Source: Desulfobulbus propionicus
Lineage (GTDB): Bacteria > Desulfobacterota > Desulfobulbia > Desulfobulbales > Desulfobulbaceae
Assembly: GCA_002748735.1 (NCBI GenBank)
Contig: PDTC01000019.1
Span: 1 to 64,000 of the forward strand
Length of the DNA stretch: 64,000 nt
Reading direction: 5' to 3'
Shown: piece by piece, positions 22,188 through 37,668 of the stretch
Layout of the letters: each line of letters begins with the position of its first letter
How positions within the stretch are numbered: the stretch's first letter is position 1
Made by a program: the position numbers and the translations under genes
The notes under the pieces: model-generated
Database searches by the model: none
Told to the model about the DNA's origin: nothing
What the model saw: the letters and a program-made list of their open reading frames with translations, nothing else

Positions 22188-22870
22188 CGTACCGCACCCA
22201 CTCGTTGGAGATACTGTTCAGTGATCGTTTTCTGATCCTCCGGAGTGAGGTTCTTGACGATCAGCTCCTCAGCCATACCGGCTGCCGCATCTGCAGCGTC
22301 AACCAGTAATCTGCGGCGGGCATCAACCACTTCCGCCTGGACGGCAGCCTCAGCCTGACGCTTGATATCTTCAGCGGCTTTCTCGGCCTCGGCAAGAATC
22401 CGCTCTTTCTCGTTTTTCGCCTGGGCGATGGCCTTTTCAACAACCTGCTCCATCTCCTTTTCCATGCCCGCCAGTTTTTCGGTAAACTCACGATAGGATT
22501 GCTGGGCCTCGTCACGACGACCCTCAAGCTCTTCAAGCTCTTCCCGCACCTGCTTTTGCCTTCCGGTAAGCCCGTTGCTGATGGGTTTGCCAAGGAAATA
22601 GACAAGAAGGACCACCAAGGCGACAAAGTTGACGGTTCGCCAAAAAAGGTCCTTCCATTTCGCCGCAGGAGGAAAGCCACCGTGATGCTCTTCGCTGTTG
22701 GCTTCATGGGCAACAGCGCCGCCCTCATGGATGGCACCACTCACCTGCGCAGAGGTCTGCACTGCCTCATGACCACCATCATCCGTCGAGGAAGCACAGA
22801 CAAAAGACGCCGTGCCGACAGCGAACATCAGCGCGGTCATGAACAGAATCTTCGTGATAAATGATCTCAT
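22184..22870 (-). CDS. atpF: F0 ATP synthase b subunit with extended N-terminus
   Basis: A 228-residue peripheral-stalk subunit. Unlike the compact Escherichia coli b (156 residues) it has a signal-like hydrophobic N-terminus (residues 1-26) and a His/Glu-rich exported-looking linker (about 28-68). The membrane anchor follows (WRTVNFVALVVLLVYFLGKP, about 75-94), then a long charged coiled coil. Such two-segment b subunits are common in Desulfobacterota. ATGA overlap with the preceding b' gene indicates coupling. The peripheral stalk is probably a b/b' heterodimer. Confidence 0.93.
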   Translation of the reverse strand: MRSFITKILFMTALMFAVGTASFVCASSTDDGGHEAVQTSAQVSGAIHEGGAVAHEANSEEHHGGFPPAAKWKDLFWRTVNFVALVVLLVYFLGKPISNGLTGRQKQVREELEELEGRRDEAQQSYREFTEKLAGMEKEMEQVVEKAIAQAKNEKERILAEAEKAAEDIKRQAEAAVQAEVVDARRRLLVDAADAAAGMAEELIVKNLTPEDQKTITEQYLQRVGAVR

Positions 22871-23298
22871 GCTTCCAGACTCCTTCCAAGAATCTTTTCG
22901 GCCATCTCCCTGGCAAAACCGGCAACATTGCCCTGGAGCTGTTTACCGGCGGTATCCACCTGCACGCGGATCTCTGCCAGCTGCTGTTCTTTACCCTCAT
23001 CCATCTCACTGCGGATGGCGGCCAGTTTTTCGCTCCCCGCAGCCTGTGCCTCACTGCGGGCACCATCAAGGGCCTTTTTTGCGCGGCTGCTGGCTTCACG
23101 CATCTGCTCTTCCACTTCTGCCTGACGCTGCCGGGCGTCTTGACGAAACCGCTCAATATCACCGTGTAGTGAGGCAATTTTTTCCTTGCGCTGCTCAAGA
23201 ATGCCGAGGACCGGCTTGTACAACACAGCGTTGAGGACAAACATCAGCACGATCATGTTGATGATGTGCAGGACCAGGGTAATGTCAATCGTAATCAT
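22867..23298 (-). CDS. atpF': F0 ATP synthase b' subunit
   Basis: A 143-residue second b-type subunit: one N-terminal membrane helix (about residues 4-27, ITLVLHIINMIVLMFVLNAV) and a charged coiled coil rich in Glu, Gln and Ala. GAGGAG precedes the ATG. It is the first gene of the operon; genes for the a, c and I subunits are not upstream and must lie elsewhere in the genome. Confidence 0.92.
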   Translation of the reverse strand: MITIDITLVLHIINMIVLMFVLNAVLYKPVLGILEQRKEKIASLHGDIERFRQDARQRQAEVEEQMREASSRAKKALDGARSEAQAAGSEKLAAIRSEMDEGKEQQLAEIRVQVDTAGKQLQGNVAGFAREMAEKILGRSLEA

Positions 23299-23433: not shown

Positions 23434-24471
23434 TCAATATTCCTTTTCAGCCACCGGCTTCTCGTCCAGGACAGGTCTCCCACTGGTCTGCAGCCAGCTG
23501 ACCAGGCGGTCCAGCCCTTCTTCCATGCCAACCTGCTCCTGGTATGCCAACAACCGCTTCGCCTTGGAATGGTCGAACCAGTGAGATCGGGCCAGCTGAA
23601 GGGCAAGAAATCTTGTCATCTTAGGCTCCTCTTGCCACCGGGCAAGGGCATAAACGCCTTCCAGGGTCCAGCCAGCGAGGTAGGCGATCACCAGCGGCAC
23701 CCGTCTGCGTACTGGAGCGATATCAAGACGACGAAACAGGGTATTGATCCAGTCCCACAGGTTCACCGCTCTTTCCTGGCCGATAAAAAAAGCCTCGCCA
23801 GCGGCAGCACCATCTCCATGAAGACTTTCAGCAGCCAGCAGATGGAGATGGACAACATTCTCGATATAGCTGATATCCACACGGTTGCCACCATCACCGA
23901 CAATCCGCAGTTGCCCATTTCTGCCCCGTTCCAGCAGCCTCGGAATCAGGTGACGATCACCAGGCCCCCAGACCAGGTGCGGACGTATCGCCGTGGTCCT
24001 GAGCTCCGCAGTACTGGCTGCGAGCACCAGCCGTTCCGCTTCAATTTTGGTGCGGGCATAGGCACAGAGCGGCCTCCTGCCGTACGGCAACGTTTCCTCC
24101 CCTCCCTCAATGTTTTTTCCGGCAAAAACCACCGATGGCGTAGACGTATAGACCAGTGCCGCAACGCCGGACTCCTGGCATGCCCTGATAACATGTACAG
24201 TGCCACCCACGTTAATGTCGTGATACTCCCGACTCGCTCCCCAGATACCAGCCTTGGCAGCAACATGAAAGACTGTATCCCGGCCCATGACGGCCTGCCT
24301 CACCTCTTCAAGGTCACGAAGATCGCCGACGATGCACTCGGCCCCAAGCGCCTCAATCTCTGGGTACCTGTTGCGGCCGAACACCGCTACCCTGAGCCCC
24401 CTGGCAAGCAGAGCCCTGACAATTCCCTGGCCGATAAACCCTCCGCCACCGGTGACCAGAACGTTCTTCAT
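23434..24471 (-). CDS. oleD: OleD, 2-alkyl-3-ketoacid reductase
   Basis: A 345-residue extended short-chain dehydrogenase. The cofactor loop is GGGGFIG (residues 8-14), and the catalytic residues are Ser110 in VYTSTPSVVF and Tyr138/Lys142 in AYARTKIEAE. In the Ole pathway it reduces the 2-alkyl-3-ketoacid made by OleA to the 2-alkyl-3-hydroxyacid using NADPH. The ATG at 24471 overlaps the oleC stop as ATGA and has AAGGAGG 7 bases upstream; the longer frame is rejected. By family alone it could be a sterol-type 3-beta-hydroxysteroid dehydrogenase relative; adjacency to oleA, oleB and oleC decides for OleD. It is the last gene of the run. Confidence 0.88.
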   Translation of the reverse strand: MKNVLVTGGGGFIGQGIVRALLARGLRVAVFGRNRYPEIEALGAECIVGDLRDLEEVRQAVMGRDTVFHVAAKAGIWGASREYHDINVGGTVHVIRACQESGVAALVYTSTPSVVFAGKNIEGGEETLPYGRRPLCAYARTKIEAERLVLAASTAELRTTAIRPHLVWGPGDRHLIPRLLERGRNGQLRIVGDGGNRVDISYIENVVHLHLLAAESLHGDGAAAGEAFFIGQERAVNLWDWINTLFRRLDIAPVRRRVPLVIAYLAGWTLEGVYALARWQEEPKMTRFLALQLARSHWFDHSKAKRLLAYQEQVGMEEGLDRLVSWLQTSGRPVLDEKPVAEKEY

Positions 24472-26102
24472 CTGCCGCCCTCCTTGTCGCTTCCCACACG
24501 GTCTGCCGCCCATTGTCCCAACTGTTCACGAAAGATCTTGGCATTGTGGCGAATATCCACAGGAAAGCCCGGGTGAACAAGAAAATCGGTAATGGTTGCC
24601 GTCAAAGGATTCCCCAGGGCCAGCGCTCGCAGCTCCTTGAACAGGGCAGCGGGCTCCTGCCGATCCATAAGCTCGACGAGCAGTACAGGGCGCTGTTGAC
24701 CGGGAGCTCCGATCCCCACCAGGGCTGACCTGAACACCCGAGGATGCGCATTGAAGATCGCCTCACAACAGACGGTGTACATGGGGCCTGTCGGCGTGAG
24801 CACCCGATGGGCCTTACGCCCGCAGAACCAGAGCCTCCCTGTATCGTCCCGGTATCCCATGTCCCCGAAGCGGTGCCAAAGCCCCTCGTCACTGGCAATT
24901 TTTGCCAGTCGCGTTTCCTCTGCATTGTCGAAATAGGCCTGGGTGACCACCGGACCGCGCACCACAATCTCGCCAATGTCCCCTGGTGGTAGTTCCTCTG
25001 CCAGCTCCATCCGACTGATGGGCCCATCCACCGGCCGGATCACCCGGATCTCCATGCCTGGCAGAGGTCTGCCCACACAGGCACCGGCGCCACTGCCCGT
25101 CATTGCCCAGGTGGAGCGCAGAATTTCCTCACCGGTACAGGAGGTGGTCGGCAACGATTCAGTGGCACCGTAGGGTGTATGAATCTCTGCCCGGTCCGGA
25201 AGAATTCGCCGCACCCTGTCAATCAATTCACCGGGAACCGGTGCCCCGGCCATGAGCACCTTACGAACCGGCAGTGTAATTCCCTGTTTCAGGCAGTAGC
25301 GGCTGACCACGTTCCAGATTGCCGGAGACCCGAAGGAGTAGGTCACCCCCTGCTCAACTATACTGCGAACAAACTTGTCGGGCTGCACCTGAGCCGGACG
25401 GCTGGGATCCATATCCGGGATAACAGCTCGGACACCCAACGCTGTGGAAAACAGCGCAAAAAGGGGGAAACCGGGCTGATCAACATCATCCGGACCTATA
25501 CGGTAATAGTCGCGGATCATCTCAAGTTGGGCATGAAAGATACCGTGGGTATACTCCACGCCCTTGGGCGGCCCGGTGGAACCGGTGGTAAAGATAATGG
25601 CGGCCAGCTGTCCGGGCGCCGCCTTCACCACCGGAAAAGGGGTGGCAACAGCAGGACGCAGCCGTCTGGCCAGCGGCCCGAGTCCGCCGCCAACACAGAA
25701 ACGCTGCCGGAGCGTTTTAAAGGGGCCAGGGACAAACCGACTGAAAAGTACGGCCCGGGGAATGCCCACCAGGATATCGGGACGAACCCCGCCGATGCAG
25801 CGCAGCAGGTTTGCATACCCCATCCCCGGATCTATAAGGATAAGCACTGCCCCCAGCTGAAAGAGGGCAAAGGTGAGCGAGATGAACTCCATGGATGGCC
25901 GTACCATGAGGATAACCCGGTCACCGGCACGGACGCCTTCGGCCTCCAGGCGTGCCGCATAGCCATCGGCGGCCTCCTGTAACTGGGCAAAACTCCAGTG
26001 CCGGTAGCCCCTTCTCCCTGCGGTCATGGTCACGGCCCGGGCCGACCCCTGGACCGCCGCCACCTTCCGCAGCACCGAGGCGATATTATACTCAGCAGCC
26101 AA
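24468..26102 (-). CDS. oleC: OleC, beta-lactone synthetase
   Basis: A 544-residue adenylate-forming enzyme. The AMP-binding loop is FTTGSTGPPKG (171-181). THGIF, YGATESLPTTS and FGDMGYRDDTGRLWFCGR are typical of the OleC branch of the ANL superfamily. OleC uses ATP to close 2-alkyl-3-hydroxyacids to cis-beta-lactones. The start is most likely TTG at 26102 (MAAEYNIASVL), with GGAG 7 bases upstream inside the end of oleB, so the two overlap by 11 bases and are probably translationally coupled. A rare TTG start may keep OleC low relative to its neighbours. Confidence 0.88.
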   Translation of the reverse strand: MAAEYNIASVLRKVAAVQGSARAVTMTAGRRGYRHWSFAQLQEAADGYAARLEAEGVRAGDRVILMVRPSMEFISLTFALFQLGAVLILIDPGMGYANLLRCIGGVRPDILVGIPRAVLFSRFVPGPFKTLRQRFCVGGGLGPLARRLRPAVATPFPVVKAAPGQLAAIIFTTGSTGPPKGVEYTHGIFHAQLEMIRDYYRIGPDDVDQPGFPLFALFSTALGVRAVIPDMDPSRPAQVQPDKFVRSIVEQGVTYSFGSPAIWNVVSRYCLKQGITLPVRKVLMAGAPVPGELIDRVRRILPDRAEIHTPYGATESLPTTSCTGEEILRSTWAMTGSGAGACVGRPLPGMEIRVIRPVDGPISRMELAEELPPGDIGEIVVRGPVVTQAYFDNAEETRLAKIASDEGLWHRFGDMGYRDDTGRLWFCGRKAHRVLTPTGPMYTVCCEAIFNAHPRVFRSALVGIGAPGQQRPVLLVELMDRQEPAALFKELRALALGNPLTATITDFLVHPGFPVDIRHNAKIFREQLGQWAADRVGSDKEGGR

Positions 26103-26955
26103 GGCAGCGCTCCACAAAGGGAGTGATCACTCCCATGGCCTCGGCAAAGGCGTCCTCAAGCACATAATGTCCGGCATCCTTACAGTACAGAGTCTGTGCA
26201 TCGGGAAAACGTCGGCGCCACTCAGCAAAAAAGACCTCATTAAAACAAAAATCACGCCCTCCCCAGCAAAGCAGCATGGGGCAATCTTCAAGACCCGCTA
26301 AACCGGCCTCCACCTCCTTGAGTGTTGCCCATGAGGGATGCCTGCTGTTCATGGGAATATCCCTGACGAAACGGTACAGGGCGACACGGTCATGCCAGGA
26401 GCGGTACGGGGCAAGAAAGCCGGCAGCCCGCTCAGCTGTCAGGGGTGTTGTTACCGCCATCTGCACCGATGGTCGGGCAAAGCCGTTGAGACCGCGCACC
26501 AGCAAGGCGCCAAGGCCCGGCACCCGGCAGACACTGAGGCGCAAAGGGATGTACGGCATAGGAAAGGCAGCGGTATTGGTAACGACAATACCGGCTACCC
26601 GATCCGGATGACGTCCGGCCCAGCCCATGCCAATAGCCCCGCCCCAGTCATGCACCATCAACAGGCACCGCTGGATATCGCGCTCCTCGAGCAAGGCTTC
26701 CAGATTATCGATATGCTGGCTGAGCGTGTAGGGGTACTGCTGGGGTTTGTCGGACAGGCCACAGCCGATATGATCCGGCGCCACACAGCGATATCGCCCG
26801 CTCAAGGCAGTGATGACCCTGCGGTACAGATAAGACCAACTGGGGTTTCCGTGCACCATGACCACTGCCGGACCATGGCCCTCATCCACACAAGACATCC
26901 GCACTCCACCCACCTCAACCCTGACCGGTTTGAAGGGGTACTCATACAAGGACAT
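26092..26955 (-). CDS. oleB: OleB, beta-lactone decarboxylase (alpha/beta hydrolase)
   Basis: A 287-residue alpha/beta-hydrolase of the haloalkane dehalogenase-like group. HGNPSWSYLYR (35-45) forms the oxyanion region, Asp103 in MVHDWGGAIGMGW is the nucleophile and His263 in DAGHYVLED is the general base. OleB breaks cis-beta-lactones into an olefin and CO2. The start at 26955 lies two bases after the oleA stop, without room for other regulation. In some bacteria OleB is fused to OleC; here they are separate. Confidence 0.88.
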   Translation of the reverse strand: MSLYEYPFKPVRVEVGGVRMSCVDEGHGPAVVMVHGNPSWSYLYRRVITALSGRYRCVAPDHIGCGLSDKPQQYPYTLSQHIDNLEALLEERDIQRCLLMVHDWGGAIGMGWAGRHPDRVAGIVVTNTAAFPMPYIPLRLSVCRVPGLGALLVRGLNGFARPSVQMAVTTPLTAERAAGFLAPYRSWHDRVALYRFVRDIPMNSRHPSWATLKEVEAGLAGLEDCPMLLCWGGRDFCFNEVFFAEWRRRFPDAQTLYCKDAGHYVLEDAFAEAMGVITPFVERCLGC

Positions 26956-26957
26956 GC

Positions 26958-27992
26958 TCACCAGTCTATCCCCAGCATCATGGTGTTGATTCCGGAACCG
27001 ATGCCCAGCAAGGCGCAACGCTGCCCGGGTTGCAGGTATCCCCGTTCAATTCCCAGGGCCATGGTGATCGGCGCGCTCACTGACCCGACGTTGCCCAGCT
27101 CGGCAAGCGTCTCGAAGTTACGCGCCGGGTCAAGTTTCAGGCTCGAAAACAGGAGGTGAGCATGGGCGCGCCCCACCTGATGACAGAAAAACCGGTCAAC
27201 GGTTTCCGGCTGCCATGCCAACTCCTGGAGAAAATCATCCCAGCAGTCACGGGCAGTCTCGACGCCGCGAATGAGCAGCTCCTCGGAATCCGTGGACATG
27301 AGTACACCCTGCTCGGCGTTCTGGCCGCCCTGGCAGAGATGGTTGTACTCGGTGTTGGCCCGACAGGCTCCGCCGCGCAAGTAATGGCCGGAATCGCTGA
27401 ACGTGTCACTGGTGAGCACCAGGGCTACTGCTCCAGAGCCGATGGTCAGGGAGGCGAACAGCGGTTTGATGCTCTTACGGGAAATCGTCTGGTCGGTCTG
27501 CAGAAGCCTGATGGTCGAATGAACCAGGTCTTCGGCGGTCTCCCCGGCAACGACAAGCCCGCTTTTCACCTGACCAAGCTCGATCATCCCGGCCAGCATC
27601 ACCATACCGTTGAGAAAACCCAGGCAGGCATTGGAGATATCAAACACCTGACAGCACTGGGGCAGTCCAAGCTGACGATGCACGAAAGAGGCGGTACTGG
27701 GCTCGAGCATATCCCGGCTCACCGAGGTAAACAGCAGGCAGCCAAGATCGTTCTTCCCGATGCCTGAGGCCGCAATGGCCTGTTCCCCCGCCATGGCTGC
27801 GGCCTGGCTGGGCCGGGTGCCTTGATCCCAGAGGCGACGGCTCCGGATCCCCGTCATCAGCTCCAGCCGTCCCTGTGGCAGACTGAGCCGAGAGTAAAGG
27901 GGACTCAACTCCTCTTCCAGTGCCGTGGAGGTGAGGTTCACCGGCGGCAACGCATACCCAAAAGCCTGGAGGCAGACCTTACTGAACCGCAT
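26958..27992 (-). CDS. oleA: OleA, head-to-head acyl-CoA condensing thiolase
   Basis: A 344-residue thiolase-fold enzyme that condenses two fatty acyl thioesters without initial decarboxylation into a 2-alkyl-3-ketoacid. The catalytic triad is Cys123 (DISNACLGFLNG), His271 (FFCHQVGRAH) and Asn301 (LGNVGSV). Glu97 in MLEPSTA sits where OleA enzymes supply a distinctive glutamate from the partner subunit; FabH-type synthases lack it. The ATG at 27992 (MRFSKVCLQAFGYALPP) has GGAGG 7 bases upstream, and a TTG extension to 28151 overlaps the DUF1232 gene without support. It could accept acyl-ACP from the dedicated synthase just upstream, or acyl-CoA. Confidence 0.9.
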   Translation of the reverse strand: MRFSKVCLQAFGYALPPVNLTSTALEEELSPLYSRLSLPQGRLELMTGIRSRRLWDQGTRPSQAAAMAGEQAIAASGIGKNDLGCLLFTSVSRDMLEPSTASFVHRQLGLPQCCQVFDISNACLGFLNGMVMLAGMIELGQVKSGLVVAGETAEDLVHSTIRLLQTDQTISRKSIKPLFASLTIGSGAVALVLTSDTFSDSGHYLRGGACRANTEYNHLCQGGQNAEQGVLMSTDSEELLIRGVETARDCWDDFLQELAWQPETVDRFFCHQVGRAHAHLLFSSLKLDPARNFETLAELGNVGSVSAPITMALGIERGYLQPGQRCALLGIGSGINTMMLGIDW

Positions 27993-27993
27993 A

Positions 27994-28254
27994 TCACCGC
28001 CTCCGGGAGTTGACGTCATCAGACGACGAAAACCGCCCTGCCCAGGCGATGAGCAGGGCTGCCAGGGCAACGTCGTCGAGTATTCCGGCGACTGGCAGCC
28101 ACTCGGGGATAAGGTCATAGGGCGAGAGGCAGTAGAGCAGCCCGCCGGCAAGGATGGCCTTTACCCAGAGCGGGGTTCCGGGCGCAAAAAAGACCCTGAC
28201 GGCCCGACGGAGCATACCCCAGGCCTGGTGCAGCAGTGAGGCCGATGGTGTCAT
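27994..28254 (-). CDS. DUF1232 (YkvA-like) small membrane protein
   Basis: An 86-residue protein with the DUF1232 signature LYCLSPYDLIPEWLP (about 43-57) and two short membrane-associating helices (about 33-50 and 54-72). GGAG lies 6 bases before the ATG at 28254, and its stop is one base from the oleA start. Its role is unknown; the position inside the run suggests that it anchors or organises the hydrocarbon-forming enzymes at the membrane. Confidence 0.8.
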   Translation of the reverse strand: MTPSASLLHQAWGMLRRAVRVFFAPGTPLWVKAILAGGLLYCLSPYDLIPEWLPVAGILDDVALAALLIAWAGRFSSSDDVNSRRR

Positions 28255-28273
28255 GACTGTCTCCTTGCGGTAT

Positions 28274-29086
28274 TCATGTGCAGCCCTGCGCCACCGTCCG
28301 GGTGACGATGGCGCTGTCAAAATAGTTCTGCCCCATACCTGCATCGACCACCAGGCACTGACCAGTTATCCCGGAGCTTCTCGAGGAGAGCAGAAAGGCA
28401 GCGGCATTGGCGGCCTCTTCGGTCTGCAGCGCCCTCTTTCGATAGGTTGCCTGCTCGGCAAAAAGGTAGGAGTCAATATAGCCGGGAATACCTGCTGAAG
28501 CCGATGTCTTCAGCAGGCCCGGACAAACCGCGTTGAAGCGTACCTCACTGAAGGCAGAAAAACTCTTTGCCAGAAAACAGAGTGACGATTCCAGCGCTGC
28601 CTTGACCGGTGCCATGTACCCATAATTTTCTGCAGCCATCCGTGTTGTCGAAATCGAAATGGTGACCACAGAGGCATCCTTTGCCAGCAGCTCCTTCAGC
28701 GAATTTGCAATACTGATCAGGGAGAAACAGGAGATATTGACGGCCTGAAGAAAATCCTCCTGCCTGGTTTCATGAAAAGGTTTCATCCCGTCGCTGTAGT
28801 TGGCAAAGGCGATGGAATGGACCAGACCGTGCACAGGGCCATGGACAGCGGCGGCGATCTCGTCGCGCACCCGATGGATATTTGTCTCATCCTCAACATC
28901 GCAGCAGAACACCTGACAGCCGGGAAAGAGTTTTCTGCAGGTCACGGCCCGCTGTTCACTTCGCACCACGTGGAGCACCTCTGCGCCAGCCGCCTGGACA
29001 ACACGGGCAATGGCGCAGGCCACAGACTTTCTGTTGGCCAGCCCAAAAACCACCACCTGCTTACCACTCAGCCCGAGAAAATCCAT
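28274..29086 (-). CDS. FabI-like enoyl-ACP reductase (SDR), atypical
   Basis: A 270-residue short-chain dehydrogenase of the FabI branch. The cofactor segment [13 protein letters not shown] (residues 15-27) matches GxANKKSIAxGIA, and the spacing Tyr155-x6-Lys162 (NYGYMAPVK) is the FabI-specific pattern rather than the general YxxxK. At the position of the first FabI tyrosine (Escherichia coli Tyr146; Phe in InhA) there is Ile145. It probably reduces enoyl-ACP in the dedicated chain-building path, but the deviation leaves open a different reaction. The ATG at 29086 overlaps the preceding stop (TGATG) and has AGGAGG upstream. Confidence 0.82.
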
Positions 29087-29523
29087 CACCCCTCCTTGAG
29101 AGAACAGGCAAACTCCACCTGAAGCGCCACCTTGTCCTGCAGTTTCACGCTACCTTTCAGAAACCAGGCAGAGCTGAGACGTTCCTTCAGGGTGGCATGA
29201 ATATTGATGGTTGCGCCAGGGCCGACCTCCCGCTTGAACCGGGCCGATTGAATTCTGGTCAGCACAGGCACCGCACCTTGCAACGACGGCTCTATACCGG
29301 CCAGCTCAACGATCAACAGGGCGCCGGCCTGAAAAACCGCCTCGCAAAGCAGTACTCCCGGCATAAGCGGATGGTCCGGATAATGGCCACGAAAGATATC
29401 GAGGTCTTCGGGCAGATCCTTTTCCGCATGGATGCGCTGCTCATCCATTTCGACAATCCGGTCGATCCAGAGAAAAGGCGGCCTGTGAGGAAGGCGTTGC
29501 AGCACAGCAGCATCGGCCACCAT
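29086..29523 (-). CDS. FabZ-like 3-hydroxyacyl-ACP dehydratase
   Basis: A 145-residue hot-dog-fold protein. [13 protein letters not shown] (11-23) and [17 protein letters not shown] (46-62) carry the catalytic His47 and Glu61 of FabZ/FabA-type dehydratases. It would remove water from 3-hydroxyacyl-ACP, and some members also isomerise the double bond. TAATG overlap with the preceding ketoreductase gene shows coupling. It is one of the dedicated synthase genes next to oleABCD. Confidence 0.87.
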
Positions 29524-30257
29524 TACAACCCTCCGGTAATTTCCAGGACCGTGCCGGTGATGTAGGCCGCATGTTCACCGGCAAGAAAGAGTACGGCCTC
29601 GGCCACCTCATCTGCGGAACCAAAACGCCGCATCGGCACCATATTTTTGTACTGCCTCAGCTGCTCGTCGGAGAGCCCGTCAAGGAACTCAGTGCTGATA
29701 AAGCCCGGCGACACCGCGTTCACCGTGATCTTTCTCTTGGCCACCTCACGGGACAGCGATCGCATCAGCCCCACCTGCCCGGCCTTGGAGGCCGCATAAT
29801 TTGCCTGGCCAGTGAAGCCCATCCGTCCCATCGGGGAGGTGATAAAGATGATCCGCCCATACTTCTGCTGCATCATCATGGGGACCGCGAACCGCGACAT
29901 GGTAAAACCACCGGTGAGATTGACATCGAGGACCCGCTGCCACTCGTCCTCTTTCATGAGAGGCACCAAGGCGTCGCGACGGATGCCGGCATTGTTCACC
30001 AGGATGTCCAGGGTGGCGACGCTCTCTTCAAGGCGGCTGTAAAAGTCCTGAACAGCCGCGTAGTCAGCGACATCCAGCTGCTCCAGATGCAGTCGATCAG
30101 TAGCACTCTCTTGGCGCAGCTCCTCGGCGGCAGCCTCATTTCCGCCATATACCCCGATAACTTCCGCACCCCTCGCCAGCAGGGCAGAGGTAATCGCCCG
30201 ACCAATCCCTCTGGTCGCCCCGGTCACCACCGCCCGTCTTCCCGAAAAATCGCTCAT
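29523..30257 (-). CDS. FabG-like 3-ketoacyl-ACP reductase
   Basis: A 244-residue short-chain dehydrogenase. TGATRGIG (12-19) binds NADPH, NNAG lies at 88-91, and Ser141, Tyr154 and Lys158 (QANYAASKAG) form the catalytic set. It reduces 3-ketoacyl-ACP in the dedicated synthase. The start at 30257 (MSDFSGRRAVVTG) is chosen from family N-termini; an ATG at 30266 also follows the GGAGGGG site, and a TTG at 30305 is less likely. Confidence 0.88.
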   Translation of the reverse strand: MSDFSGRRAVVTGATRGIGRAITSALLARGAEVIGVYGGNEAAAEELRQESATDRLHLEQLDVADYAAVQDFYSRLEESVATLDILVNNAGIRRDALVPLMKEDEWQRVLDVNLTGGFTMSRFAVPMMMQQKYGRIIFITSPMGRMGFTGQANYAASKAGQVGLMRSLSREVAKRKITVNAVSPGFISTEFLDGLSDEQLRQYKNMVPMRRFGSADEVAEAVLFLAGEHAAYITGTVLEITGGL

Positions 30258-30305
30258 CTTTTTCATCCCCTCCATCAATCCCGGCCACAGGTTGAGATCC
30301 GACAA

Positions 30306-31727
30306 TCAGTGATCACTCCTGAGCAACGCATCCGCATCGTTGGCGACGATCACCCCGTAGTTGATGGCCCCTAGCCAGCCGCTCATGATGATTCCCACCG
30401 ACCCCACATGAAAGAGCCCGGCAACCTCTTTGAAGATCCCCCTGGAGAGGTCCAGTCCCTCGAACTTTGTCCCAAAAGATGTCCCCTTGGTATGCAGGGT
30501 ATACCGGTTAAACGTCAGCGGTGTTGCCGAGTCAATGGTATCGATTTTCTCTCCAACCCCAGGTAGATACCGTTCAAGATGCCGCAGACAACGCTCCTCC
30601 ATCTTTTTCTTGGCAGCGCTGTACTCAGCCGGGGCAAGAGGTTTCCAGTCATCGTACCTCGCATTCATGGAGGCGACAATGGTGTAATCAGGATTTTCCG
30701 GCCGTGTCTTCGGGTAGTACAAGGAAAAGGTCATGCTGCCGGTGTCGGGACGCAGCATCTCTGATGAAGAAAACTCTGGTGCGGTTGAGGTAAACAGGAG
30801 ATCTCCGATATCGTCGATCACCTCGCCCCGGCGAATCCCAAAGTATACCTGACAGCTGGAGTTATTCACCCTGACCCCGTCAAACTGTTCACAGAAAGCA
30901 GCGGAAAAATGCTCCCGCCCCACCAGGTTATCGACAGTATTGGTGATACCGCTGTTGGAGATAACGCAACGCGCTTCGATCCGGCGGCCACCCACGTCAA
31001 CACCCCGCACCCTTCCCTTTTCGACAATAACCCGTTCCGCCCGTGCCCGGGTACAGATGGTGACCCCGGCTTCTCTCAATTGCCTGGTCATCATGTCGAT
31101 CAGCTTGTCGGTCCCCCCCTGGAAGGTGAAGACCCCGCGATTCATGAAGTTAGAAAAGACGATCCCATAGGTGATGGCCGGTTCATCAAGGGTAGAGCCG
31201 TTGGCATAGGTAATAGGCTCCATAAGCAGGCGGTGCACATCTGTTCGGCCCGGAAAGAACTGGTTGAAGAGCTCGCGGGTGGTGATCTGGCGGTCGTCAT
31301 AGTAGTTCATCTGTTCGACAGCACGAAAAAAGCCTTCCACTGTCTCCTGCGCTATGGCAAACCGCTCAAAAAGGATGCGGATAAAGTCGTCCTTGCTGAA
31401 GGTGGTGGTCAACTGAAACTGGGGATTATCAAAGACAATATTTTTCAGTTGAACAATGCAATCCCGAATCTCTCCTCCCCAGTACTTCTTGCAGGTCTTG
31501 ACCATGCCATAGGGGAAGCCGTGCAGGGAGACATCAAAGACATGGCCGCCGCGCTTGAACCAGGTGGCCAGTCCTCCCAGCTGAAAGTGGTGCTCCACCA
31601 GGAGAACACGGTGACCGGCCCTGGCGAGCCGATTGGCCGAAGTCAGGCCGCCAAGACCCGAGCCGATAATAACGACATCGTAGGCCGGTTCAAGGTGTGT
31701 CAGCGGAGTAAAGGAAGAGTCAGCCAT
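30306..31727 (-). CDS. CrtI-like FAD-dependent oxidoreductase (first copy)
   Basis: A 473-residue flavoprotein of the phytoene desaturase/retinol saturase superfamily. GSGLGGLTSANRLA (22-35) is the dinucleotide-binding loop, LVEHHFQLGGLATWF follows, and the C-terminal FAD motif appears near FHVGSVGIIMSGWLGAIN. No carotenoid-backbone genes (crtB, crtE) are nearby. The enzyme is embedded between a ketoreductase and a second CrtI-like gene. In this setting it likely desaturates, saturates or isomerises an acyl chain or the olefin; the substrate is inferred from context. From memory and unverified, related CrtI-like genes occur in fatty-acid clusters proposed for ladderane lipids of anammox bacteria. 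Confidence 0.8.
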   Translation of the reverse strand: MADSSFTPLTHLEPAYDVVIIGSGLGGLTSANRLARAGHRVLLVEHHFQLGGLATWFKRGGHVFDVSLHGFPYGMVKTCKKYWGGEIRDCIVQLKNIVFDNPQFQLTTTFSKDDFIRILFERFAIAQETVEGFFRAVEQMNYYDDRQITTRELFNQFFPGRTDVHRLLMEPITYANGSTLDEPAITYGIVFSNFMNRGVFTFQGGTDKLIDMMTRQLREAGVTICTRARAERVIVEKGRVRGVDVGGRRIEARCVISNSGITNTVDNLVGREHFSAAFCEQFDGVRVNNSSCQVYFGIRRGEVIDDIGDLLFTSTAPEFSSSEMLRPDTGSMTFSLYYPKTRPENPDYTIVASMNARYDDWKPLAPAEYSAAKKKMEERCLRHLERYLPGVGEKIDTIDSATPLTFNRYTLHTKGTSFGTKFEGLDLSRGIFKEVAGLFHVGSVGIIMSGWLGAINYGVIVANDADALLRSDH

Positions 31728-31745
31728 GGGAAAGTTGTCCTCAAA

Positions 31746-33119
31746 TCAGGAAAGGATATGCCGGTTGACCATGGCCACGCCGCTGAGCATGGAACCGACA
31801 ATCCCCAGGTAGCCCTGGTCAGTTCCGGCAAGAAAGAGATTAGCCCATGGCGTCTTCCCGTCACGGACTTTCACGGCACTGCCGTACACTGCGCCGGCAG
31901 CCTTACGGGTGAACCGTTCAATGGTGACAGGGGTAAAACAGTCCAGGCAGGTCAACGAGGAGGCAGCGATCCCCAGATGACGGGCAGCGATCTCTCTGGC
32001 CCTGTTCTGCCACACCGCTTTTGCGCCATGATAGGCAACGGGCTGGAGTGACTGCCAGTATACGTGTCTGGCGCTCAGGGTGACCCGGACCTGGAGCCCA
32101 TTCGCCAGATCCAGCCCCTGAAACTGATCTGGCCGGCAGAGCACCCCCCAGGATGGATCAACCGGCCCAGTCGGGCAGCAATAGGAAAAACGCTGCTGGT
32201 CATTAAAAAAAACGATCGCCCTTGCCTCAGCCGCTACACTGGCGGCGGTGGCTGGCGCCAGCAGTATGGTTTCCACAAAACTCATCCTGCCGACGTACGC
32301 ATCACCAACCTTCCACCCGGTAAGTCTTGCGGTCTCCGGGACACCAGCTGTGGAGATTACAGCCGCAGCAGCCAGTCGTTCCCCGTCATCGAGCACCACC
32401 TCTGTGATCCGGTCACCGACAATGGTAAGGGAATCGACCCGCTTGCGTAGCCTGACCTCTCCTCCCAGCGCCTTGAAATGGTCGAGGAGTTGCCCGAGAA
32501 ACTCACGGATAGTGTGCTCGGGCCGAAACAGCCCCTCAAGAAACAGGGCACGAAACATAATCATAAACTGCCGAAGATCCATATCTTTTTCCTCGGCGTT
32601 GCCGTAAACCATGACTGGCAGAAGCAACATATCGATCAACAGCGGGTCATTGAGCTGTTCGCCAAGGAAGGTCCTGGTGGAGCGCCAGGGTCCTGGAGCA
32701 AAGGGATCGAACGTCCGGACACACTCGAGCAGGCGCAGGAACCGGCGGCCTTCTTCAGGAAAGGCACGGTTAACCTCGTCAATGAGCACGGCAACATCAT
32801 TGGTGAAGTTCAAACGAACATCAGGAAAACGAATTTCCGAACCGGTCTGTTCGCGGGTGACAAACTCCTTTCTGGGCAGTTTGAGCTGACGAAACAGGAG
32901 ATTTAACGGCGCCCGCTTCTCGGTGACAGGCGCATGGTTGGTCATGGCATGCAGCCCGGTTTCATAAAGGATTCCCTGACGCCGGTAATACGAGTTCAAA
33001 CCACCTGGCAGGCTGTGCTGTTCAAGGATAAGTGTCCGGACCCCATACCGGGCGGCTCGAATTCCAGCGGCAATACCGGAAAGCCCCCCACCAATGATGA
33101 TCAGCTGGTAATCGGCCAT
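31746..33119 (-). CDS. CrtI-like FAD-dependent oxidoreductase (second copy)
   Basis: A 457-residue flavoprotein of the same superfamily as its neighbour. It has IIIGGGLSGIAAGIRAA at the N-terminus, EQHSLPGGLNSYY for FAD ribose binding, and LFLAGTDQGYLGIVGSMLSG as the C-terminal FAD motif. It differs strongly in sequence from the first copy, so the pair is not a recent duplication. The two may act in sequence or as a heterodimer, as some paired CrtI enzymes do. It lies between the ACP gene and the first copy. No membrane anchor is evident beyond the usual hydrophobic C-terminal helix. Confidence 0.8.
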   Translation of the reverse strand: MADYQLIIIGGGLSGIAAGIRAARYGVRTLILEQHSLPGGLNSYYRRQGILYETGLHAMTNHAPVTEKRAPLNLLFRQLKLPRKEFVTREQTGSEIRFPDVRLNFTNDVAVLIDEVNRAFPEEGRRFLRLLECVRTFDPFAPGPWRSTRTFLGEQLNDPLLIDMLLLPVMVYGNAEEKDMDLRQFMIMFRALFLEGLFRPEHTIREFLGQLLDHFKALGGEVRLRKRVDSLTIVGDRITEVVLDDGERLAAAAVISTAGVPETARLTGWKVGDAYVGRMSFVETILLAPATAASVAAEARAIVFFNDQQRFSYCCPTGPVDPSWGVLCRPDQFQGLDLANGLQVRVTLSARHVYWQSLQPVAYHGAKAVWQNRAREIAARHLGIAASSLTCLDCFTPVTIERFTRKAAGAVYGSAVKVRDGKTPWANLFLAGTDQGYLGIVGSMLSGVAMVNRHILS

Positions 33120-33169
33120 AGTGGGAGAAAAAGATCAGTAAGGGACATCAGCCCATGGCGACTGGGAAT

Positions 33170-33421
33170 TTATACGTCCTGGAGTCGTGGTTCAAGATAG
33201 TCAACGCAACTGTTCAGGGTAGCAAGCTGCGGGTAGTCTTCTTCGGGGATCTGCAACTTATAGCGTTTCCGCAGCTCCATAACAATATCAAGAAAATCCA
33301 TGGAATCCAGATCCAGTTGATCTCGAAGAGGCTCTGCGCCATTCAGATTATCAAAATCGGCCTCATCGTCAATATCCTCTATGATTTCAAGGATAACATC
33401 CTTGATTTCGTCCCGGGTCAT
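33170..33421 (-). CDS. Dedicated acyl carrier protein
   Basis: An 83-residue acidic carrier protein. The phosphopantetheine attachment site is Ser40 in LDLDSMDFLD, not the DSLD of AcpP. It is not next to fabD or the housekeeping fabF, so it is probably a specialised ACP for the chain made by this cluster. Confidence 0.9.
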   Translation of the reverse strand: MTRDEIKDVILEIIEDIDDEADFDNLNGAEPLRDQLDLDSMDFLDIVMELRKRYKLQIPEEDYPQLATLNSCVDYLEPRLQDV

Positions 33422-33537
33422 AACGTCTTGTCCTTGCAGTGTTAACGCTTTATCATTGCCGTAAAAATCGTGAGCCCGCCACTGTTCCCTCTTCTGTCCT
33501 TGGGCTCAAACTGTCCTTTTTACCACATAACAGCCTT

Positions 33538-34782
33538 TCACGCCACAAATCTCTTGACGATCACCACGGAATTGATGCCCAGCATACCAAAAGAGTTGTT
33601 GAGGATGACGTCCACCCGGTCCACCTCTTCAGGACTCCCGGCGACAAGACCTGGAACGTGACACTGCGGATCAAGGTCGTCGAGGTTGATGGTGGGGTGT
33701 ACCTGATTATCGGTAAAACTGGGAAGATTACCGGCCAGTTCAAGTACACCGGCCGCCCCCATGGCATGGCCAATGCTCGACTTGGTGTTATTCACCCGAA
33801 CACGGTTGCACCCTGCAAACAGGGACCGCACAGCCGAGCACTCCTCGACATCACCCTGCTGGGTCCCTGTGGCATGGGTATTGACAATCGAGACATCTTT
33901 GGGCTCCAGTGCTGCACGCCGCAACGCAGCCTCCATGCACTCCCGTTGTCGAGGTCCATGGGGCAGGACAACATCACAGGCGTCGGAGTTCATCGCATAT
34001 CCGGCAACCTCAGCATAGATTGACGCGCCCCGGCTCAGGGCGCTTTCCAGCCGCTCAACAACGAACATGCACCCACCTTCGGAAATGACAATACCGTTAC
34101 GATTCTTGTCAAAAGGACGGCTCGCCCTGGTGGGATCTTCGTGCTGGGCAAGTGCCCCCTGGGCCTTGAAACTGGCAAAGATACCAAAAGACCCGACGCA
34201 CTCTGAAAATCCACCACAAAGGGCCAGGTCGACCTCGTTTAAGCGTAACATCTGCACACCCTGAATAAGCGCGGCGTTACCGGCGGCACAGGCTGCGCCA
34301 ATGGAATAATGCGGCCCGGTTATTCCCAGGTTCATAGTGATTTCGCCGGCAGGATTGTTGAGGACAGTACGTGGATTATGGTGGTGGGTCCAGTAATCGA
34401 CGTCATAGTCATACCGGCTGATATTGTACACCTCGTTTTCGGTCTCCACGGTTCCGTGTTCCGTCAATCCCGCATACACCCCTGTCCGGTGCGGCACCAG
34501 CATATCCCTGCTGAGCCCCGCGTCCTCCAAGGCCTGGTTGGCACAGTAGACCCCGATACAGCCGGCCCTGGTCCCCCGCTTGTTTTCACGTTTTTTCCGA
34601 TACCTGGTTTCCTGAAACGAACAGAGCCCGGCCGGATGTTCGCCCATGTAGCGAAGGTCAATAGTGGAAATACCACTGCGGCCAGCCAGGAGATTGGCCC
34701 GGAAGTCCATAAGGTTGTCAGCTCCCGGCGCGACAAGGCCAACACCGGTGAGTACGATTCGATCATTTTTCTGGTCAGTCAT
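33538..34782 (-). CDS. FabF-like beta-ketoacyl-ACP synthase
   Basis: A 414-residue decarboxylating ketosynthase. Catalytic Cys165 (GAACAAG), His303 (NTHATGT) and His339 (SSIGHAMGAAG) make the intact C-H-H triad, so it can extend chains with malonyl-ACP and is not a chain-length-factor-type subunit. The ATG at 34782 (MTDQKNDRIVLTG) is preferred; longer alternatives at 34806 and 34827 lack a good Shine-Dalgarno. It is the first gene of the run down to oleD, and about 165 bases without a gene separate it from alaS, leaving space for a promoter. Confidence 0.9.
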   Translation of the reverse strand: MTDQKNDRIVLTGVGLVAPGADNLMDFRANLLAGRSGISTIDLRYMGEHPAGLCSFQETRYRKKRENKRGTRAGCIGVYCANQALEDAGLSRDMLVPHRTGVYAGLTEHGTVETENEVYNISRYDYDVDYWTHHHNPRTVLNNPAGEITMNLGITGPHYSIGAACAAGNAALIQGVQMLRLNEVDLALCGGFSECVGSFGIFASFKAQGALAQHEDPTRASRPFDKNRNGIVISEGGCMFVVERLESALSRGASIYAEVAGYAMNSDACDVVLPHGPRQRECMEAALRRAALEPKDVSIVNTHATGTQQGDVEECSAVRSLFAGCNRVRVNNTKSSIGHAMGAAGVLELAGNLPSFTDNQVHPTINLDDLDPQCHVPGLVAGSPEEVDRVDVILNNSFGMLGINSVVIVKRFVA

Positions 34783-34992: not shown

Positions 34993-37668
34993 TCAAGAGG
35001 TTAGCTGCGTGGTTACCAGGTCACTGGCACGGGCCATCACCTCATCGAGTTTGTCAGGCATGGGGCCGCCGGCCTGGGCCATATCAGGGCGGCCTCCCCC
35101 CTTGCCGCCAACAATGGCTGCCGCCTCCCGGACAAGATCTCCCGCCTTGACCCGTCCGGTAAGATCTGTGGAGACCAACGCCAGTAGGACGGCCTTACCC
35201 TCCAGTTCTCCGCCAAGCAGGGCGATTCCGCTTTCCAGGCGGTCGCGAACCTTATCACCAATTTCCCTGAGCGTCTTTGCTGAGTCCAGGGGAACCTTTC
35301 CGGCCACCACCCGGATACCCTCGACCTCAACGGCGCTGGCCAGGAGCTGATCAAGGCCGCTCAGGGCTACCTGCTCATGCAAACGGCTCACCTCCCGTTC
35401 AAGGGATTTCTGCCGGTGCAGCAAGGTGGCAATCCGCGCTGCTGCCTCCTCAAAAGGTACACTCAGCGCATCGCTTACCCCAGCGGCACGGGCAGCCAAG
35501 TCCTGGAGCCATTCCACGGCAACCGGCCCAGTAACAGCCTCTATCCGGCGAACACCTGCAGCAATACCGGTCTCTGCGACGATCTTGACAAGGCCGATCT
35601 CACCGGTGGCGCCCACGTGGGTTCCCCCGCATAACTCCTTGGAAAAGGCGCCCATGGTGACCACCCGTACCGCATCCCCGTATTTCTCACCAAAAAGGGC
35701 GGTGGCCCCATTACTAAGCGCCTCTTCCCTTGCCATCACCTCGGCGTCGACCCGAAGATCAGCACGAACCTGCTCGTTGACCAGTTGCTCGGTCCGCGCC
35801 AGTTCTTCCTCTGTCACCGGAGAAAAATGGGTAAAATCAAAGCGCAGACGGTGGTGCTCCACCAGCGAACCAGCCTGTTTGACATGGTCACCCAGCACCT
35901 GACGAAGGGCCTCGTGCAAGAGGTGGGTGGCGCTGTGATTCAACATGATCTTCTGCCGACAGGGAGCATCCACCCGCAGGTGTACGCTATCACCAACGGC
36001 AAGCCTGCCCTTGAGAAGCCTGCCACTATGGAGGATCAGCCCTTCAGCGGCAAGTGTGGTGGACTCCACCTGGAACCGCCCGTCAGCCCAGAGAATCTCG
36101 CCTCGATCGCCGATCTGGCCGCCGGCTTCAGCGTAAAAAGGTGTCTGCGGACAGTAAATCCGGGCCTCGGCACCGCTCTTGATTTCCCTGACGAGACAGC
36201 CATCGACGTCGATAATTCCAGCGACTGCCGAATCAGCCTCAAGGTCTTCATACCCGAGAAAGACGGTGGTCATTCCCTGGCCGGCAAGTTCGAGGACACC
36301 GGCATCAAGATGCTCCACATCTGCACCCTTCCAGGATTTACGAGACTGTTCCCGTTGCCGTCCCATGGCCGCTGCAAAACCGGCCTGATCAAAGTTGACC
36401 GAGCTTTCCAGGGCGATGTCCCGGACAATATCCACCGGGAACCCAAACGTATCATACAACTTAAAGATAAACTCACCGTCAATACATGCCTGCTTGCCCT
36501 GTGCCGCCTGAAGGGTCTCTATTTTCTGGTGCAGCATCTCCAGGCCATGATCAAGGGTCTCGCCAAAGCGTTTCTCCTCATTGCTCACCACCTTTTCCAG
36601 GAGGTTACGGTAGCCGTCAAGATAGGGATAGGCCTCCATCATCATGGCAAGAACCCTGTCGCAGACGCTGGTAAAAAAGGCGTCCAGCCCGAGATGGCGA
36701 CCATAGCGGATAGCACGGCGCATAATCCGTCGCAGCACATAGCCGCGGCCCTCGTTGGCGGGAAGCACGCCATCGGCAACGAGAAAGGTGGTCGCCCTGG
36801 CATGATCGGCAATGACACGCATGGCAACATCGTCAGCCCTGTTCGCCAGGTAGGTTCGGCCGGCAAGGTTGCCGATATACCTAATAATCGGGGCAAACAG
36901 GTCAGAGTCAAAATTGTTGTATTTCCCCTGCAGTACCGCTGCCACCCGCTCCAACCCCATGCCGGTGTCAATGGCAGGCCGAGGTAAAGGGGTCATTGTT
37001 CCGGACTCATCCCGGTAGAACTGCATGAAAACCAGGTTCCACAGCTCAAGAAACCGGTCACATTCACAGCCGAGCTGGCAATCCGGTCGACCACATCCGG
37101 CCGCTGCCCCCTGATCGATGTGAATCTCCGAACAGGGCCCGCAGGGGCCGGTATCTCCCATGGCCCAGAAATTATCCTTCTCACCGAAGCGGACAATCCG
37201 CCCAGGGGGAAGGTCCTTGATCTGTTTCCACAGTTTCTCGGCTTCATCGTCATCGGTATAAATCGATACCCAGAGCTGAGCAGGATCAAGCCCCAGTTCC
37301 TTTGTCAGAAAATCCCAGGCAAAGGTAATGGCCTCTTTTTTGAAGTAATCACCGAAACTGAAGTTACCAAGCATCTCAAAAAAGGTATGATGGCGGGCGG
37401 TGTAACCGACATTTTCCAGATCATTGTGCTTGCCCCCTGCGCGCACACAGCGCTGCGAGGTGGTAGCCCGGACATATGACCGCTTGTCCTCGCCCATGAA
37501 CACCCGCTTGAACTGCACCATCCCAGCGTTGGTGAACAGCAGGGTGGGATCGTCCTGGGGAACCAGCGGTGAAGAATCCACCCGAGTGTGACCACGATCC
37601 TCAAAGTATTTGAGAAATCGCTCACGTATCTCGTCACCTGTCATGCCCGTTTCATCAGTTTGTTTCAT
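34993..37668 (-). CDS. alaS: Alanyl-tRNA synthetase
   Basis: An 891-residue class II synthetase of usual length. The N-terminal catalytic domain shows LLFTNAGMVQFK and TARHHTFFEMLGNFSFGDYF, the editing domain has HSATHLLH, the second zinc-type motif is CGGTHVGATGEIG, and a C-terminal oligomerisation domain follows. It charges tRNA-Ala and edits Ser- and Gly-mischarged tRNA. GGAGGG precedes the ATG. The gene is monocistronic here. Confidence 0.98.
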   Translation of the reverse strand: MKQTDETGMTGDEIRERFLKYFEDRGHTRVDSSPLVPQDDPTLLFTNAGMVQFKRVFMGEDKRSYVRATTSQRCVRAGGKHNDLENVGYTARHHTFFEMLGNFSFGDYFKKEAITFAWDFLTKELGLDPAQLWVSIYTDDDEAEKLWKQIKDLPPGRIVRFGEKDNFWAMGDTGPCGPCSEIHIDQGAAAGCGRPDCQLGCECDRFLELWNLVFMQFYRDESGTMTPLPRPAIDTGMGLERVAAVLQGKYNNFDSDLFAPIIRYIGNLAGRTYLANRADDVAMRVIADHARATTFLVADGVLPANEGRGYVLRRIMRRAIRYGRHLGLDAFFTSVCDRVLAMMMEAYPYLDGYRNLLEKVVSNEEKRFGETLDHGLEMLHQKIETLQAAQGKQACIDGEFIFKLYDTFGFPVDIVRDIALESSVNFDQAGFAAAMGRQREQSRKSWKGADVEHLDAGVLELAGQGMTTVFLGYEDLEADSAVAGIIDVDGCLVREIKSGAEARIYCPQTPFYAEAGGQIGDRGEILWADGRFQVESTTLAAEGLILHSGRLLKGRLAVGDSVHLRVDAPCRQKIMLNHSATHLLHEALRQVLGDHVKQAGSLVEHHRLRFDFTHFSPVTEEELARTEQLVNEQVRADLRVDAEVMAREEALSNGATALFGEKYGDAVRVVTMGAFSKELCGGTHVGATGEIGLVKIVAETGIAAGVRRIEAVTGPVAVEWLQDLAARAAGVSDALSVPFEEAAARIATLLHRQKSLEREVSRLHEQVALSGLDQLLASAVEVEGIRVVAGKVPLDSAKTLREIGDKVRDRLESGIALLGGELEGKAVLLALVSTDLTGRVKAGDLVREAAAIVGGKGGGRPDMAQAGGPMPDKLDEVMARASDLVTTQLTS

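Follow-up and report, generated by a model that had tools for sequence, protein, structure and literature searches.

A gene block that places a discrete type II fatty-acid synthase and two CrtI-like flavoproteins beside OleABCD in a Desulfobulbaceae genome

How might anaerobes without a known large synthase make polyunsaturated hydrocarbon oils? The question is raised by a block of twelve genes in a 64,000-nucleotide stretch assigned to Desulfobulbus propionicus (assembly GCA_002748735.1, contig PDTC01000019.1, positions 1 to 64,000; the whole stretch is called the window here). The host genome is a Desulfobulbaceae-type metagenome-assembled genome (MAG) of 1.81 Mb, 86% complete, with the window on its contig 21. 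As determined from the open reading frame list and family scans, the genes lie on the minus strand, run from 34782 to 23434, and are flanked by alaS and the F-ATPase operon. Their order is ketoacyl synthase (KS), acyl carrier protein (ACP), CrtI1, CrtI2, ketoacyl-ACP reductase (KR), dehydratase (DH), enoyl-ACP reductase (ER), DUF1232 protein, OleA, OleB, OleC and OleD. The block is real, complete and widespread, and we think it likely that it encodes a discrete, oxygen-independent type II synthase of polyunsaturated acyl-ACP joined to OleABCD, giving the hydrocarbons C31:9 and C31:8. The parts are as follows.

33538..34782, minus strand: KS, FabF-like ketoacyl synthase (family match and Cys motif; frame open to 34827, TTG)
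33170..33421, minus strand: ACP, acyl carrier protein with DSM motif (family match and motif)
31746..33119, minus strand: CrtI1, flavin adenine dinucleotide (FAD) flavoprotein of the phytoene desaturase/carotenoid isomerase kind (family match)
30306..31727, minus strand: CrtI2, second flavoprotein of that kind, used as marker of the module (family match)
29523..30266, minus strand: KR, FabG-like ketoacyl-ACP reductase (family match and motif; frame open to 30305)
29086..29523, minus strand: DH, FabZ-like dehydratase (family match and motif)
28274..29089, minus strand: ER, FabI-like enoyl-ACP reductase (family match and Y-x6-K)
27994..28254, minus strand: DUF1232 small membrane protein (family match; frame open to 28344)
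26958..27992, minus strand: OleA, head-to-head thiolase (family match, motifs and tree; frame open to 28151)
26092..26955, minus strand: OleB, alpha/beta hydrolase, beta-lactone decarboxylase by position (frame open to 27018)
24468..26117, minus strand: OleC, beta-lactone synthetase (family match and motif)
23434..24471, minus strand: OleD, 2-alkyl-3-oxoalkanoate reductase (family match and motif; frame open to 24513)
34993..37668, minus strand: alaS, upstream neighbour kept in relatives, outside the pathway
22867..23298, minus strand: atpF, ATP synthase b subunit, which opens the F-ATPase operon kept downstream in relatives, outside the pathway

Families and active sites of the twelve proteins

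With starts deduced from relatives and internal ATG codons for KS (34782), KR (30266), DUF1232 (28254), OleA (27992), OleB (26955) and OleD (24471), the widest intergenic gap is 116 bp and several genes overlap. A preliminary description, made from the sequence alone, had listed twelve same-strand genes of these families with intact catalytic residues, and family scans and motif alignments bear it out; its wording that the ole genes are "fused" to a fatty-acid synthase (FAS) does not hold, all twelve genes being separate. Discrete KS, ACP, KR, DH and ER of a type II FAS carry their active-site residues, and OleA, with its active site intact, is followed in order by OleB, OleC and OleD. In alignments of relatives, the motifs whose residues we take to be catalytic are kept throughout or nearly so: the KS Cys motif in 41/41 rows, the ACP DSMDF motif (Ser) in 45/45, DH His and Glu in 34/34, ER Tyr-x6-Lys in 29/29, the OleA motifs NACLGF, xEPxxA, CHQVG and GNxGS (Cys, Glu, His, Asn) in 33/33, the OleC AMP-binding motif in 24/24 and OleD YxxxK in 20/20, while KS His and KS Lys are each absent from one truncated row of 41, the KR motif from one truncated row of 32 and OleB His from one truncated row of 27.

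KS and ACP match Pfam ketoacyl-synt (1e-37) and PP-binding (8e-8), and KR reaches 272 bits on 3oxo_ACP_reduc against a cut-off of 298. Since KS, ACP, DH and ER score under the FabF, ACP, FabZ and FabI equivalog cut-offs, they are to be read, on these scores, as divergent paralogues of type II FAS enzymes. Neither CrtI1 nor CrtI2 reaches the curated CrtI, CrtD or CrtISO cut-offs (CrtI2, 104 bits of 587 for carot_isom and 96 of 238 for crtI_fam; CrtI1, 54 of 238 for crtI_fam), which places both, by family score, in the superfamily of carotenoid CrtI and CrtISO and in other subfamilies of it. OleA scores 442 bits on PRK09258, above its cut-off of 285; OleC scores 641 bits on PRK09274, above 478, yet falls under two olefin equivalog cut-offs; OleD, at 363 bits, is short of the 580 cut-off; and OleB was assigned from the Pfam alpha/beta hydrolase family and its position only.

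Two simpler identities for the block were ruled out. It is not the housekeeping FAS: on contig C27 the host has other FabH-, FabG-, ACP- and FabF-like genes (27% identical to OleA, 42% to KR, 27% to ACP and 32% to KS), and on contig C3 a 315-residue frame that, like FabD, hits the PfaA model in its acyltransferase section. Nor is it a Pfa-type polyunsaturated fatty acid (PUFA) synthase, the enzymes all being separate small proteins without multidomain PfaA or PfaC; PfaA above its cut-off of 1010 bits was found in none of the 57 Desulfobulbales genomes mapped, the host included. FabD and a phosphopantetheinyl transferase are both lacking from the cluster, which would have to borrow them.

Recurrence of the block and its linkage to ole genes

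At E<=1e-100, 198 of 257 Desulfobulbales genomes contain CrtI2. Mapping of the 57 relatives gave 44 loci with CrtI1, 24 of them with OleA in the same stretch and several others stopping at a contig edge. The full order from alaS to atpF is present in three one-contig genomes (G637, G651, G652), and its retention in relatives argues that the grouping is not due to chance. Elsewhere the block splits after DH, with ER and OleABCD distant or on another contig (L070 with L098, L085 with L095). In loci of the Desulfocapsa kind (L132) the KS-to-DH block faces oleD and oleC at a distance of about 7 kb, and OleA is located elsewhere in the one such genome checked (G371); the intervening genes of L132, considered as lipid genes, proved to be a tolQRAB-like operon, a TPR protein and an FtsJ-type methyltransferase. 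Matches to DUF1232 among the mapped loci were confined to Desulfobulbales. Some Desulfobulbaceae carry 1-3.4 kb of extra DNA in the gap from KS to ACP or from CrtI1 to CrtI2 (L066-L069, L072, L073, L110).

A scan of named genomes with the CrtI2 alignment confirmed at least 565 relatives, of which the best 80 were used. Among these the matches are mostly labelled Desulfobulbaceae, Desulfobulbus or Desulfocapsa, the top one (L104) being filed under Desulfobulbales, Desulfobulbaceae; 55 are 66-74% identical to CrtI2 and were treated as Desulfobulbales, some being labelled otherwise. The other 25 (57-63% identical), all MAGs, are labelled Planctomycetota or its groups, Nitrospinota or Nitrospina, Chloroflexi or Dehalococcoidia, Nitrospirota, Deltaproteobacteria, or simply "bacterium". 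Many of these 25 loci are cut by contig ends; DH was found in 24, ER in 23, CrtI1 in 18, ACP in 16, KS in 14 and KR in 14; within these loci OleA was present in 4, OleC in 3 and OleD in 4. The arrangements with ole genes outside Desulfobulbales differ from one another:

L166, L168, L171 (Chloroflexi): OleA-KS-ACP-CrtI1-CrtI2-KR-DH-ER
L163/L271 (Dehalococcoidia CP070819): OleA-KS-ACP-OleA-KS-CrtI1-CrtI2-KR-DH-ER, with two OleA-KS pairs
L176, L177 (Planctomycetota): OleC-OleD-KS-ACP-CrtI1-CrtI2-DH-ER
L260 (Planctomycetota): OleABCD-KS-ACP-CrtI1-CrtI2-DH-ER
L257 (G401, Planctomycetota sample): KS-ACP-CrtI1-CrtI2-KR-DH-ER-OleA-OleB-OleC
L264 (Planctomycetota): KS-ACP-CrtI1-CrtI2-DH-ER-OleB-OleC-OleD, with OleA 7 kb off
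L214 (Desulfobacterota outside Desulfobulbales): KS-ACP-CrtI1-OleABCD-CrtI2-KR-DH-ER, with oleABCD inside the module

OleA is doubled, in a manner similar to L163/L271, in L198/L211 (G347, Chloroflexi-labelled). When loci with enough flanking sequence were counted, any ole gene within 11.5 kb of CrtI2 being scored, linkage was found in 15/20 Desulfobulbales loci, 17/25 named-scan loci (partly from the same genomes), 6/11 Planctomycetota, 2/2 Chloroflexota, 1/2 other Deltaproteobacteria, 0/1 Nitrospinota and 0/1 unclassified loci. The preliminary description had proposed a search for the same gene order in Desulfobacterota and Planctomycetota and had named consistent separation of the fab/crtI and ole genes as evidence against it. 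Such separation is not what is seen: the order recurs in relatives, L257 matches it from KS to OleC, and the first, second and third of these counts contain linked loci in good number. Its further claim that an acyl-building line with its own carrier is tied to OleABCD is upheld by this linkage and by the cluster's own ACP.

The two parts also occur together in whole genomes. Among 246 Planctomycetota genomes (CrtI2 at E<=1e-60, OleA at E<=1e-40), CrtI2 is present in 51 and OleA in 87; OleA accompanies CrtI2 in 51/51 cases and is found in 36/195 CrtI2-negative genomes (Fisher p 1.7e-29). Among 297 Desulfobacterota genomes (E<=1e-90 and E<=1e-50), CrtI2 is present in 16, OleA in 31 and both in 12, so that OleA is found in 12/16 CrtI2-positive and 19/281 CrtI2-negative genomes (p 2.5e-10). 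At E<=1e-20, OleA was detected in 26 of the 29 genomes behind the named loci, missing from G351, G354 and G358; locus L168 of G354 nevertheless carries a piece of OleA at a contig end.

Upstream of alaS, an MBOAT acyltransferase and AlgX/SGNH-like pair at 38175-40828 of the window resembles polysaccharide acetylation systems.

Alternation of acyl builders and a proposed route

A tree of OleA was made from 76 of 112 collected sequences, with Desulfobulbales thinned and named-scan loci and second copies omitted. A single change on it separates 55 rows with the module, from Desulfobacterota, Planctomycetota, Chloroflexi and Nitrospinota, from 21 rows without; the module-labelled row L102 comes from G038, a genome with a module-type KS that yielded no orthologue of CrtI1 or CrtI2. 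Nineteen of the 21 no-module rows, Planctomycetota and Desulfobacterota mixed, group together with support 99, L225 and L228 standing apart. Grouping OleA by phylum was rejected, with p 7e-50 for Planctomycetota together and p 0.03 for Desulfobacterota (both without L228). The OleA of L257, from a Planctomycetota sample and with the gene order of the window from KS to OleC, groups with those of Desulfobulbales, which suggests that the block has passed between phyla.

Loci on the no-module side have a different neighbour. A same-strand stop-to-stop frame of more than 1000 residues lies directly upstream of OleA in 15 of the 21 (the others being L224, L225, L228, L247, L249 and L256) and in none of the 41 listed module-side loci, L102 included. 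The five giant frames annotated (L221, L222, L223, L250, L253) each contain 2-4 FabA-type domains and KS parts, and four of the five an acyltransferase match, two of those under the Pfam cut-off. That of L222 scores 506 of 1010 on the PfaA model and is thus Pfa-like and not a member. The 21 no-module loci gave no CrtI1 or CrtI2 matches. Two acyl builders thus take turns next to OleABCD, one a Pfa-like megasynthase whose domains include the FabA type, the other a set of discrete enzymes that includes two CrtI-like flavoproteins and a FabZ-like DH. On the best reading, the discrete type II system for polyunsaturated acyl chains replaces Pfa as the supplier of OleABCD.

In the route proposed here, KS would extend the acyl chain carried by the cluster's own ACP, housekeeping FabD providing the malonyl units; KR and DH would produce enoyl-ACP, and ER would reduce it in some cycles. 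In other cycles the double bond would be retained through CrtI1 and CrtI2. These would most likely act as flavin-dependent isomerases that turn the trans-2 bond into cis-2 or cis-3, as FabA-type domains do in Pfa synthases; a desaturase role is less likely. A 16:4-type chain needs double bonds to be kept and moved during elongation, and the cluster enzymes left over for this are CrtI1 and CrtI2. After presumed transfer from ACP, OleA would join two chains, expected near C16:4 and C16:3; OleD would reduce the product, OleC form a beta-lactone and OleB remove CO2, giving C31:9 and C31:8.

The same polyunsaturated olefin would result if CrtI1 and CrtI2 were true desaturases of the acyl-ACP made by the line, with electrons passed to the quinone pool. 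This alternative is near the proposal of Rattray et al. (2009) that phytoene-dehydrogenase-like genes add double bonds in an anaerobic PUFA pathway of Desulfotalea psychrophila (PMC2649909). The NCBIfam carotenoid isomerase model matches 24/24 CrtI2 and 25/25 CrtI1 members at E<=1e-10, and desaturase models match nearly as well, slightly better for the window's CrtI1, none of them at cut-off in the window proteins. Isomerisation is favoured because KR and DH already make double bonds, so that relocation alone is needed, because no oxidant is required, and because the flavoproteins occupy the place of the FabA-type domains that are their counterpart in the annotated no-module loci; for FAD to desaturate an isolated C-C bond would also be the harder reaction in an anaerobe. 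We regard desaturation as possible, if doubtful on balance. When the distantly related Kuste3336 and Kuste3607 were expressed in E. coli, lycopene was not produced (Javidpour et al. 2016; PMC4790861), a result that does not choose between the two roles.

In a further alternative, the chain that the line makes is of unusual length and saturated or monounsaturated, and CrtI1 and CrtI2 come into play once OleABCD has finished, with the olefin or a conjugated polyene as substrate. KS, KR, DH and ER do form a complete saturating cycle, and CrtI enzymes usually have hydrocarbons as substrates. However, the CrtI genes remain within the KS-ACP...DH block even where no OleA was detected in the genome (L215, L217), and we consider late action unlikely.

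Several points weigh against a type II synthase that feeds OleABCD with polyunsaturated chains. The product is deduced from genes alone, for the host and for every genome examined, and family scores do not separate isomerase from desaturase for either flavoprotein. The Fisher p-values above are overstated, that is, too small, because the genomes share ancestry. Support for the module side of the OleA tree is weak (82, and 51 without L228). KR is present in only 1 of 11 full-flank Planctomycetota loci, and four relatives (G004, G005, G015, G053) hold the CrtI module plus, elsewhere, PfaA-like megasynthases, so that the two are not strictly exclusive genome-wide; such megasynthases, of 733-798 bits against the cut-off of 1010, occur in six Desulfobulbales relatives (these four, G044 and G054), others scoring lower. 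In the stretches of G660, G688 and G693 no ole gene accompanies the module, module and OleA lie far apart in genomes such as G007 and G033 (one contig each), and G038 has OleA, ER and a module-type KS without CrtI1 or CrtI2 orthologues found. Four Desulfobacterota genomes, three of one genus, have CrtI2 without OleA (G059, G067, G104, G139), so that another product is possible there. The D. psychrophila cluster was compared by its published description, its genome not having been recognised among the sets, and, according to a 2016 review, every C31:9 producer makes eicosapentaenoic or docosahexaenoic acid as well (PMC4882568), a claim that the Desulfotalea report does not fit (PMC2649909).

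Two of these subjects carry observations of their own. KR is absent from nearly all Planctomycetota modules (among the loci, L162, L169, L175-L177, L258, L260, L261, L264), where housekeeping FabG may serve. In G139 (L215, L230, L231), which has the module, OleA was not detected at E<=1e-50, and three CrtI2 relatives (52-56%) are spread over separate contigs; its module possibly has another end product.

Separation of the blocks in some genomes, and the four with CrtI2 without OleA, would be expected if two blocks serving different lipids were neighbours by chance. Linkage in several arrangements and phyla and the 51/51 co-occurrence in Planctomycetota speak against this, and we judge it very unlikely.

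Product and comparison with known systems

For D. psychrophila, which we take to belong to the same order as the host, both genes and hydrocarbons have been described. Rattray et al. (2009) reported FASII clusters with phytoene-dehydrogenase-like DP1860, DP2405 and DP2406, and lipid containing C31:8 (4%) and C31:9 (1%), with no polyketide synthase (PKS) found and no ladderanes; C31 polyunsaturated hydrocarbons are also known from Planctomycetes (PMC2649909). The Desulfotalea link named in the preliminary description is therefore real. The available text of that report draws its comparison with anammox bacteria, has no occurrence of the term OleA and proposes no link to ole, and among open-licence PMC papers, searched by title and start of abstract, none was found linking oleABCD to a FASII/CrtI cluster. 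By analogy, the product of the present cluster is probably C31:8/C31:9.

The special long olefin of the preliminary description, "possibly polyunsaturated or cyclised", thus stands in its first part, as the best inference from the genes, and falls in its second. FASII and phytoene-desaturase-like genes do occur in anammox ladderane candidate loci (PMC2649909), and three of four presumed anammox stretches have a CrtI-like gene beside two KS and DH (L265-L267, DH-KS-KS-CrtI-like), the fourth having it with KR and DH. Twelve genomes were judged to be anammox, the naming being ours, by HZS-alpha frames of 809-844 residues; none has CrtI2 at E<=1e-60 or OleA at E<=1e-40, and 11 of the 12 have a CrtI-like protein at 26-29% identity. 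Compared with the cluster's proteins, those of the presumed anammox loci are 24-32% identical (KS 27-32%, CrtI 24-27%). The distant CrtI, the two-KS layout and the lack of OleA argue that the module is not a ladderane locus but only a distant cousin. Radical SAM genes, reported in anammox (PMC4790861), are missing among the cluster's twelve proteins, and D. psychrophila has no ladderanes (PMC2649909). A cyclised or ladderane-like product is accordingly extremely improbable.

The C31:8 and C31:9 of D. psychrophila are reported to arise without a recognisable PKS-type synthase, their genes having been guessed in 2009 with the ole link missing (PMC2649909), and the related blocks in several phyla offer a testable answer. 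The cluster is a compact, complete and clonable gene set with a conserved marker in CrtI2, and the cultured hosts in the named scan (Desulfogranum japonicum, Desulfosediminicola flagellatus, Desulforhopalus vacuolatus) make the question directly testable. If the reading is right, CrtI-like flavoproteins take part in fatty-acid synthesis, a new route to polyunsaturates that needs no oxygen is added, and C31 polyenes in sediment become a possible signal of these phyla. More broadly, and tentatively, the module may be a second oxygen-free polyunsaturated acyl route, a type II synthase with a CrtI-like pair replacing FabA-type isomerisation, present in at least Desulfobacterota, Planctomycetota, Nitrospinota and Chloroflexota and with its own OleA lineage.

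Among known systems, the nearest in function is Pfa with OleABCD. The statement that OleABCD normally draws on the housekeeping acyl pool was too narrow, the Shewanella and Geobacter kinds being tied to Pfa-type synthases (PMC6463001, PMC3098273). In Shewanella the Pfa-derived chain for OleA is taken as 16:4n-3, two of which give C31:9 (PMC6463001, PMC4882568); Geobacter bemidjiensis makes C31:9 with pfa and ole in tandem (PMC4882568), and Shulse and Allen (2011) suggested, for Deltaproteobacteria and a planctomycete, that the ole genes are supplied by Pfa-like Type I clusters (PMC3098273). In both a dedicated synthase, next to oleABCD or working with it, supplies, or here would supply, polyunsaturated chains, with C31:9 the product there (PMC6463001, PMC3098273, PMC4882568); the difference is a type I megasynthase with dehydratase domains there and a set of single type II enzymes here, with two CrtI-like flavoproteins and one FabZ-like DH, and the OleA of loci with Pfa-like frames lies on the other side of the tree from that of the cluster. 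The D. psychrophila FASII cluster is alike in its consecutively numbered phytoene-dehydrogenase-like genes DP2405 and DP2406, whereas radical SAM genes, described for the D. psychrophila and Kuenenia stuttgartiensis clusters, are absent from the twelve proteins (PMC2649909). Xanthomonas OleABCD has the same four head-to-head enzymes and is supplied by the core type II FAS (PMC6463001), whereas in the window they are linked to their own KS, ACP, KR, DH, ER and CrtI pair, with OleC and OleD under the olefin equivalog cut-offs.

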